Source of the DNA: Dyadobacter chenhuakuii
GTDB taxonomy: Bacteria; Bacteroidota; Bacteroidia; Cytophagales; Spirosomataceae
Reading direction: 5' to 3'
Length of the DNA stretch: 64,000 nucleotides
Assembly (NCBI RefSeq): GCF_023821985.2
Contig: NZ_CP098805.1
Span: 5,447,001 to 5,511,000 of the forward strand
The position numbers and the translations under genes are program-made. Below are positions 1,246 through 4,115 of this stretch, piece by piece. The notes under the pieces are model-generated. The model worked only from the letters and a program-made list of their open reading frames with translations. It did not search any database and had not been told where the DNA came from. How positions within the stretch are numbered: position 1 is the stretch's first letter; each line of letters opens with the position of its first letter.

Positions 1246-2901
1246 TTATAATGTAACAGCGTCTTTCACTTTTACATCGTACACGCCTGTGAGCACTTTT
1301 GCATTTCGTTTTAATTGCAAAAATATCCGGTAACGACCCGCTTTGGGAAAGGAATAGGGAAATGAAATGCGGTTACCATGATCCATGCCGGACATTGCGC
1401 CGTCCTTGACATCATACATTCCCATTTCGGTCATCAGGAACACTTCTCTTTCTTCCATGGGCATAGCCTTTAATTTAGCCAAGTAACGGTCAATGCTATC
1501 CTGGAACATGGCGGGTGCGGGGGCTTTAACCGTAGTCGCCGTGTCGGCCATGCGGTCCTTGAATGACTTTTCAGCCGCCATCGCAAATGTGCCGGTCGGA
1601 TGCAGGTGAATGTATACGGAGCCATCCGTACGAACAACTGCCACGTGGCCGGTCATGCCAAGATATGGCTCGGGATAACAGGCGCTTCCATCAGGATTAA
1701 AAAATTCAAATGTCAGCTGATACGGCTTTCCTGCGTCCAGCGGCTTGTCAGGTTTGCCTTCCCAAACGGCATAGGAGCCATCTTTAAAGACAGTTTTTGT
1801 GCCCGGCTTGCCGCAAACCACTACATTCTCATCCAATGGCACTGCTCCCGGAGAGTCGATCGGATCGGTCACGACATAAGTGTCTTCCTCTGCGGTCACT
1901 TGAAGCGGGTTGCTTTTTGCTTGCTGCTCAGGAATGTCGATGGTGTCTACAATAGTTTCCGCGAAACCCGATCGTTGTACAATGTCACTGTAAACAAGAT
2001 ACTTCCCGCCTGGTAATTTGGGTAAATAGGCTTCAAATGTCGTGCTATCCTTGCGTTCCGGGTGAATGTGGGCGAAAGCGTCCATTCCAGGCGTACGTAC
2101 GAGAAATGTATGCATGAGCTTGCCATGATCCGGGATCAATGTGCTGAGCATACTGCCACGACGCTGCGAGTGAAAGCCTGTTGTGTCAATTTTTAGCTGA
2201 AAAACCCTTTGATCACCGTTCTCTAAAATGGCCGCGTTTCCCTGGATCGGCCGGTAAAGCCATTGCTTGTATTCTTCCGCCCAGCTATCCCACCAGCTGC
2301 TTCCGCCGTATAAAATGACCGAACATAGCACGGTTGCAATCCCCATATTCACCCAGCGCTTTCTTTTTTGCGCAAATGTCAATGTCTCGCCTGGCCTTAA
2401 AATGCCGTCGCTGACGCTTGCGCCAATGGTGGTGATCATTAACAAAAACAGCAGCACACCCAGAATGCTCAAACCAATCCCTAAATGTTTCGGCATTTCA
2501 CGTTCCGCCGTTGAAACGGCAACAATAGGAACGATCAGCTCACCTTTTCCTTGTTCGCCTTCAACCTGGATCTGGGCGGAGGACGATCCCCATTCCATCA
2601 GCCAAACGGCACCCTGAAATTGTCCGGTTTGCCCTGCAACCTGTGCCAGTTCGTCGGGTGACGGAGCGCCTTTGTCCCCGGAATAAAAGTAAATGGGCCT
2701 TGCAAGCACTTTTTTAGCAATGCCATTTTCGATGAAAACCGTGATTTTTGCAGTCCCTGGAATCACATCGGGCGGCTCCACGCTCACAAGCACTTTATAG
2801 GGGCCCGCCTGTCCCTGCATTTGCACACCAGCACTTCCGACGTGCGCTTTTGCTGTCATACCAACAGCCAAAAGCATGATGATTAAGATAAGATTTTTCA
2901 T
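1246..2901 (-). CDS. Membrane-anchored protein with His-rich motifs, function unknown
   Basis: A 551-residue protein with an N-terminal signal peptide (MKNLILIIMLLAVGMTAKA). A roughly 110-residue extracytoplasmic domain follows, then two membrane segments (about residues 138-160 and 186-206) and a long C-terminal extracytoplasmic part. That part carries HAHIHP, YIHLHP and MSGMDHG, clusters of His and Met that suggest metal (perhaps copper) binding; this is inference. I do not recognise a named family. It overlaps the upstream membrane gene by four bases (ATGA), so the two are almost certainly co-translated and probably work together. It converges with the HAD gene. Confidence 0.75.
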   Translation of the reverse strand: MKNLILIIMLLAVGMTAKAHVGSAGVQMQGQAGPYKVLVSVEPPDVIPGTAKITVFIENGIAKKVLARPIYFYSGDKGAPSPDELAQVAGQTGQFQGAVWLMEWGSSSAQIQVEGEQGKGELIVPIVAVSTAEREMPKHLGIGLSILGVLLFLLMITTIGASVSDGILRPGETLTFAQKRKRWVNMGIATVLCSVILYGGSSWWDSWAEEYKQWLYRPIQGNAAILENGDQRVFQLKIDTTGFHSQRRGSMLSTLIPDHGKLMHTFLVRTPGMDAFAHIHPERKDSTTFEAYLPKLPGGKYLVYSDIVQRSGFAETIVDTIDIPEQQAKSNPLQVTAEEDTYVVTDPIDSPGAVPLDENVVVCGKPGTKTVFKDGSYAVWEGKPDKPLDAGKPYQLTFEFFNPDGSACYPEPYLGMTGHVAVVRTDGSVYIHLHPTGTFAMAAEKSFKDRMADTATTVKAPAPAMFQDSIDRYLAKLKAMPMEEREVFLMTEMGMYDVKDGAMSGMDHGNRISFPYSFPKAGRYRIFLQLKRNAKVLTGVYDVKVKDAVTL

Positions 2902-4115
2902 CGTTGAATTTTATGCATCCAGTTACCCCAGGCCAAACCAATACGTGTTGAAATCAAACTGGCGATCAATGCAATGCCTAGTCCTTGCAGCAGTTCAGAT
3001 GTCGTTTCCAGCCACGGGCCAAATTTGTAGCGATACTCCCAGTCAGGGCTGTTGCCGAAATACCAGTAATGGCTGCCAAAAAACCAGTTTCGGGCATAAG
3101 GCGATTCCATCAGGAATGATCCGAAAAACCATTGGAATACAGAAAAAACAATGATAAAGGCGCTTCCCAGAAGCAATGTAAGCTTCCAATCATTCAAATA
3201 ACCGAAGCGATTACGCAAAAGATCAATGGTTATGGCTGGAATAATAAGCAGAAGTGGAAACTGGAATCCCTGATAATGATCAATGTGATTCAGGATCGGG
3301 CCTAGCTTGGGTTCCGCGGGAAAGAGGGGAATGATCCAAAGGGTCATCAACATTAATATTGTGTAAACGGTTGTCGCGGCGGTAATCGCCCATTTGTGCT
3401 TCACCGCTTTTCCGATAGCCATTAAAAAAAGCGGAAATCCTGCGCCAACACATTGGTAAAGGCTGGAATGGTGCATCCACATCCGACCAAGACTTTCAGA
3501 AAGCAATGTATACCAAATGGTTAACAGGAAGCCCGCAGACAATGCGAAAAGCCAGAACAGTCTTTTGTCCCAAAATTTTGTTTTGTCAAAAGAATGCGCA
3601 AGCCTTAGTTTCAATTGATTCTTGACCGCAATAACGCTGATCAGGGCACCAAACTGAATGCCTATCATGCCCAAAAGCAGCACGGTGTGCGGTGGGGACA
3701 AAATAGTAACATCCAGCCCGTAAGTGTTGTGCCACCAGTCGTCGAACGGGGCGGAAGTGAGCATGGCTAATGCACCCCAAACGCAGAATAAAGAGCCGAG
3801 TGAGCTATAAAAAAAGCCCCATATCTTGACACTGGCGGCTTTTTCCAAATCGCTGCCCCAGAATGTTTTACGTAAAATTTCATATCCCGAGAATAATCCT
3901 GCAACCACAGCGCCCAGATAAATAACCAGGTGAGGCGGAGATAGCAGTCCGTCGCGGCCGATGCTTATGTGCCAGCAAATGTCCCAGATGAGGCCGGTTA
4001 TGACGCAAAAAGAAGCAAAAACAGTGGCGTAAATGTAAACAGGAATGTCCGGAGCTGCATGAAGCGGGACGACGCGGCCTCCGATGGCTGGCGGAGGGCC
4101 CATAGTAGTTTCCAT
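2898..4115 (-). CDS. Polytopic membrane protein with duplicated W-H/G-x-D/SPPH motif, function unknown
   Basis: A 405-residue integral membrane protein with about ten hydrophobic segments. It contains an internal duplication: D45-x2-W48-H49-x3-G53-x-D55-x3-SPPH (59-62), and D125-x2-W128-H129-x3-G133-x-D135-x4-SPPH (140-143). Each copy sits at the start of a membrane helix and carries two histidines and two aspartates, which looks like a metal or cofactor site. A further HH pair lies near residue 190. No established family comes to mind. The stop codon overlaps the start of the 551-residue partner (ATGA). The ATG at 4115 is used; METTMG precedes the conserved part directly. Confidence 0.75.
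   Translation of the reverse strand: METTMGPPPAIGGRVVPLHAAPDIPVYIYATVFASFCVITGLIWDICWHISIGRDGLLSPPHLVIYLGAVVAGLFSGYEILRKTFWGSDLEKAASVKIWGFFYSSLGSLFCVWGALAMLTSAPFDDWWHNTYGLDVTILSPPHTVLLLGMIGIQFGALISVIAVKNQLKLRLAHSFDKTKFWDKRLFWLFALSAGFLLTIWYTLLSESLGRMWMHHSSLYQCVGAGFPLFLMAIGKAVKHKWAITAATTVYTILMLMTLWIIPLFPAEPKLGPILNHIDHYQGFQFPLLLIIPAITIDLLRNRFGYLNDWKLTLLLGSAFIIVFSVFQWFFGSFLMESPYARNWFFGSHYWYFGNSPDWEYRYKFGPWLETTSELLQGLGIALIASLISTRIGLAWGNWMHKIQR

Follow-up and report, generated by a model that had tools for sequence, protein, structure and literature searches.

A two-gene membrane pair of Dyadobacter chenhuakuii as a probable divergent relative of the copper membrane monooxygenases

Genes C (405 residues) and B (551 residues) on the minus strand in the soil bacterium Dyadobacter chenhuakuii probably encode a divergent two-gene relative of the copper membrane monooxygenases (CuMMO: pMMO, AMO, HMO) in Bacteroidota; a more distant relative occurs in Actinomycetota. 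The genes overlap by ATGA at 2898–2901 (ORF call), as a sequence-only reading of this DNA had already stated. Methane and ammonia are oxidised by CuMMOs, and it is a long-standing debate which of their copper sites carries out the chemistry. Homology to CuMMOs is supported; catalysis, a substrate, and bound copper are what we infer. The 405-residue C looks like a PmoC core fused to PmoA, since two independent methods, one for each half of C, lead to different subunits of the same enzyme. A CuC-type site and a PmoA fold are found in the pair, and three separate genes, a CuB site, and a Pfam match are lacking; we therefore rank it as a variant at the superfamily level, akin to the CuMMOs and of similar build but with some of their defining features missing, and not as a pMMO or AMO.

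The features of the locus are listed below, with coordinates in the window, that is, the whole stretch of 64,000 nucleotides that was analysed.

2898..4115, minus strand: C, 405-residue membrane protein, apparent fusion of PmoC core and PmoA-like part (ORF, AF2 model, VIA matches, hhalign to PmoC)
3603..4115, minus strand: PmoC-like half of C, residues 1–171, four membrane helices as two hairpins (hhalign score 32.4, 0/500 shuffles)
3930..3983, minus strand: C motif 1, D45-x3-H49-x12-H62 with R54/D55, CuC-site equivalent (gap-free alignment to PmoC D156/H160/R165/H173; residues from PMC12576850)
3687..3743, minus strand: C motif 2, D125-x3-H129-x13-H143, CuD-site equivalent with Asn replaced by Asp (in register with PmoC N227/H231/H245; weak alone)
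2901..3602, minus strand: PmoA-like half of C, residues 172–405 (VIA-align Z 13.4–15.0 to PmoA/AmoA, 11 PDB entries)
1246..2901, minus strand: B, 551-residue exported, membrane-anchored partner (ORF; AF2 model, pLDDT 82)
2845..2901, minus strand: predicted signal peptide of B, residues 1–19, ending AKA (sequence; AXA-type site judged by eye)
2842..2844, minus strand: His20 of B, predicted first residue of the mature protein (His in 42/42 homologues covering the region)
2512..2844, minus strand: N-terminal beta domain of B, CrdA/CopC-like fold (VIA Z 9.9 to CrdA, 8.4 to CopC)
2263..2490, minus strand: two membrane helices of B, residues 138–164 and 176–213 (AF2 model)
1258..2253, minus strand: two-repeat ectodomain of B of the copper-operon type (tblastn to proteins beside copper P-type ATPases; alignment)
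2059..2076, minus strand: FAHIHP motif of B (H278, H280, P281 invariant, 43/43)
1597..1614, minus strand: YIHLHP motif of B (H432, H434, P435 invariant, 43/43)

The duplicated motif that the sequence-only reading had pointed out in C is real. Its copies, at residues 45–62 and 125–143, form a genuine internal repeat and are homologous to each other (profile E 2.6e-7), and D45, H49, R54, D55, H62, D125, H129, D135, and H143 are unchanged in 61/61 C homologues, including an actinobacterial relative at 23% identity. Each copy had been placed at the start of a membrane helix; the helix start is indeed included, but in the AF2 model each motif also spans the end of the preceding helix and the loop between them. 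In a background of 1.09 million residues (open frames of the gathered loci), the strict motif occurs only in C-family and PmoC frames, and both ligand spacings in order were found, among 4,952 open frames, only in the C family, PmoC, and a single Rubrobacter frame, also related to C. The C relative on a Rubrobacter marinus plasmid (L026:7904–9022) has an unannotated first part and is probably frameshifted. At another locus (L205:4788–6034), C is split over two frames and D135 of motif 2 is replaced by Gly, which indicates a decaying copy or an assembly error; a natural separation of C and A genes was considered for this split and rejected in favor of a frameshifted or decaying C.

In pMMO, the CuC ligands are D156, H160, and H173 of PmoC and the CuD ligands are N227, H231, and H245, with R165 nearby (PMC12576850, whose C/D naming is used here). 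The PmoC sequence taken for comparison is identical to PDB 7ev9 chain C, and the profile for hhalign was built from 28 PmoC sequences. In the profile comparison, motif 1, DICWHISIGRDGLLSPPH, falls over DGTWHQTIVRDTDFTPSH without gaps, and motif 2, DDWWHNTYGLDVTILSPPH, falls over NEWGHTFWFMEELFVAPLH, also without gaps and in order after motif 1. No column shuffle out of 500 attained the score of 32.4 (maximum 23.2), and control comparisons with real membrane families gave at most 18.5. It should be noted that this score is mostly due to motif 1, which matches the CuC-type Asp-His-His site of PmoC gap-free, invariantly (61/61), and specifically against the background. Motif 2 has the CuD position in register and with the spacing of PmoC, Asn being replaced by Asp, and is not significant against CuD on its own; the CuD site is reported to be missing from some archaeal CuMMOs (PMC9038741). 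The helix order in the AF2 model is also that of PmoC: D-x3-H closes one helix and H opens the next, two times. PmoC sequences from viral contigs served for profile building only; the viral matches (L135, L143, L155, L160, L161, L193) span about 250 bases beyond the coding need, as if interrupted by an insert.

The initial proposal for the pair was a metal or haem transfer or redox unit. Paired His residues in membrane helices would suit a haem unit with paired axial His, but they stand in D-x3-H...H sets as at copper sites, at interfacial hairpins, and the partner domain is copper-associated, so that this reading is very improbable. The joint metal or redox part of the proposal holds, given the conserved motifs, the paired genes, and the copper-linked partner domain; the haem part finds no support.

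The second half of C is connected with PmoA through its predicted structure (AF2 model of C, pLDDT 86.5, pTM 0.87). VIA-align, which re-aligned only the Foldseek top 1000, gave PmoA/AmoA chains in all of the first 11 rows, over residues 172–405 (rmsd 3.4–4.1, ~200 residues), at Z 13.4–15.0, a range to be read against the ~13–14 that helical bundles can get by arrangement; the row after these 11 had Z 10.1. Foldseek itself found nothing in the PDB at E <= 0.001 for the C model and no significant match among viral models. The sequence link between PmoA and C is only suggestive, with 6/500 shuffles reaching its score. Residues 172–405 thus have the fold of a PmoA subunit by VIA-align on the predicted model, with weak sequence support. 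Searches with single sequences and profiles assigned neither C nor B to a family in Pfam or NCBIfam or to a PDB chain by sequence, giving chance-level matches only; the pair has no Pfam AmoC/AMO match above the cut-off, and the CuMMO layout of three separate genes C, A, and B is not seen in it.

B begins with a signal peptide (by eye) and His20, followed in its AF2 model by a beta domain, two helices, and a long beta ectodomain, and B and PmoB are alike in having a mature N-terminal His, a beta domain, two membrane helices, and a beta ectodomain. The CuB site of PmoB we take to be the N-terminal His together with the His-x-His pair H137/H139; a His-x-His of this type is absent from residues 20–130 of B, though the N-terminal His20 is present. 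No similarity of B to PmoB was detectable by profile, and PmoB is not among the VIA rows shown for B. The N-terminal beta domain is comparable to CopC (VIA Z 8.4) without a CopC Pfam match. Foldseek matches of B to complement and fibronectin domains were rejected as generic beta-sandwich likeness.

Homologues of the B ectodomain found by tblastn are exported proteins adjoining copper P-type ATPases, HMA domains, and CsoR in Gloeocapsa, Mycolicibacterium, and Arthrobacter, and the alignment shows a His set common to both (H259, H264, H278, H280, H419, H432, H434). Of the three partner motifs named at the outset, HAHIHP, YIHLHP, and MSGMDHG, the two HxHP motifs are conserved, the first in fact reading FAHIHP, and MSGMDHG is not. 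Priestia megaterium plasmids (L114:3779–4612) carry a lone homologue of the B ectodomain with no copper genes directly adjoining.

The main rival to an oxygenase is copper uptake or transfer of the CopC–CopD kind, in which B would bind copper outside and C would hand it on to cuproenzymes, either across the membrane or along it, a CuMMO-like fold serving without catalysis. The CopC/CrdA-type fold of the B beta domains with their mature N-terminal His, the ectodomain relatives beside genes for copper P-type ATPases, HMA, and CsoR, the position of the actinobacterial C relative after a copC gene, and the lack of metabolic genes near the pair all agree with transfer. However, the comparison of C with two CopD sequences gave noise (hhalign score 12–19), a Pfam search gave no CopD match, and by positive-inside reasoning the conserved ligands cluster at two hairpins on what is predicted to be the periplasmic face, the opposite side of the membrane having no second set. 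C moreover retains its two PmoC-type sites and the PmoA-like half, and we regard transfer alone as unlikely, if a serious competitor. A lone CopD-like match in the same genome reads, judged from its sequence, as HemJ-type and was rejected.

C is present in 32/59 near relatives, in 49/291 genomes of the order, and in 19/116 genera sampled, and the GTDB species collection holds 540 stretches coding a C relative, of which the best 80 were retrieved. B adjoins C at 82/85 loci with flanks; among the other three, L089 and L094 stop near C at the contig edge, and L090 has no B alongside. Conservation of the motifs and co-occurrence of the genes had been set beforehand as tests of a joint metal system, and both were passed (61/61 and 82/85 loci). 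The gene orders seen are C-B, B-C, C-B-C, and C-C-B, with two genes in nearly all loci; in one genome C and B are unlinked and both there. Neighbourhood clustering found no gene but B kept beside the pair outside Dyadobacter synteny, so that the pair is a self-contained unit, and no genes for methane, ammonia, or alcohol use were seen near it in the loci examined. The tandem C copies (L211:4934–9046, L028:7103–11521, L089) possibly mean two paralogous membrane subunits per complex, and one genome has B before C in reversed order (L216:3345–6190).

Six Dyadobacter genomes are without C; four of these also lack B, and two have only the B ectodomain. In the latter (L220:1483–2649 in G021, and L221 in G006), the ectodomain lies in a 388-residue protein behind a helix resembling C residues 181–202, likely a deletion-fusion product. 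H259, H278, and H434 are replaced in both remnants, a loss, in these two genomes, of metal-ligand-type residues of B in the absence of C.

A relative of C on a Mycolicibacterium plasmid has 616 residues and lies next to copC; it carries both motifs, the first of them longer by two residues, and, at its C-terminus, a beta domain read here as YtkA-like. Near this relative lie a cytochrome c oxidase assembly gene and one for oxidase subunit III, and 4/43 B proteins have YtkA-like Pfam matches (PF13115; best E 9e-4; B of Dyadobacter chenhuakuii itself without a match); both would fit a YtkA/CtaG/SCO-like role as assembly factor in the copper supply of a respiratory oxidase. In the Bacteroidota loci examined, however, no oxidase genes are kept next to the pair, and the likeness of C is to PmoC and PmoA, not to an assembly factor, which leaves such a role improbable.

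On the CuMMO-like reading, C would consist of a four-helix PmoC core, carrying CuC-like and CuD-like sites on two periplasmic-face hairpins, joined to a PmoA-like bundle, and B, taking the position of PmoB, would cap C on its periplasmic side. The His-rich ectodomain of B may collect or deliver copper, with B loading the sites of C; reduction by quinol would give Cu(I) sites that could then activate O2 for oxidation of a small or membrane-/lipid-soluble substrate. The sidedness of the C helices comes from positive-inside reasoning on the AF2 model; we infer the topology of C, the C–B complex, copper, oxygen chemistry, and substrate alike.

More tentatively, with the chances slightly against it, the pair may be a deeply branching Bacteroidota lineage of the CuMMO superfamily, made of only two proteins and with the duplication of the copper hairpin still visible. 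If true, a single D-x3-H...H hairpin would have been duplicated to give CuC and CuD of pMMO/AMO, and ordinary heterotrophs would commonly have membrane copper oxygenase chemistry.

On the main reading, a compact relative of this kind, with CuC/CuD-type sites and no CuB His pair in the easily grown genera Dyadobacter, Runella, and Spirosoma, would test which copper sites matter, and the CuMMO fold would extend to a phylum and lifestyle with no earlier report in the literature searched. The passages found in papers on CuMMO diversity (PMC6215863, PMC9038741, PMC12533140, PMC10030591) make no mention of Bacteroidota or fused subunits; the literature searched was mostly without subscription papers and preprints, and a gap in it is no proof of novelty. 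The suggestion that no such system had been described therefore needs qualification: the pair as such is undescribed in that literature, but its motif is the copper site of PmoC and half of C has the PmoA fold.

Among known systems, CopC/CopD (PcoCD, YcnJ) shares with the pair an exported copper-type beta domain with an N-terminal His and a multi-helix membrane partner, whereas C is not detectably related to CopD, and B is anchored in the membrane and carries additional domains. H. pylori CrdA and YtkA-like domains are alike in the fold of the B beta domains (Z ~10); CrdA, which binds copper in solution, consists of one soluble domain that lacks His (PMC9182242), in contrast to the His motifs used by B. 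The uncharacterised exported protein of HMA-X-CopA copper operons is homologous to the B ectodomain, with the same conserved His set, but stands alone, without the N-domain, anchors, or C partner. From the CuMMOs (pMMO/AMO/HMO, xmoCAB), the pair differs in having only two genes, C and A being joined in one protein, Asp for Asn at CuD, no CuB His pair, a B not detectably homologous to PmoB, an extra His-rich ectodomain, and a sequence far below Pfam thresholds. To our knowledge, Bacteroidota are not known for methane or ammonia oxidation. With the CuMMOs the pair has in common the CuC pattern D-x3-H-x12-H with Arg at +9, the CuD-type spacing, a PmoA-like fold, and a short operon.
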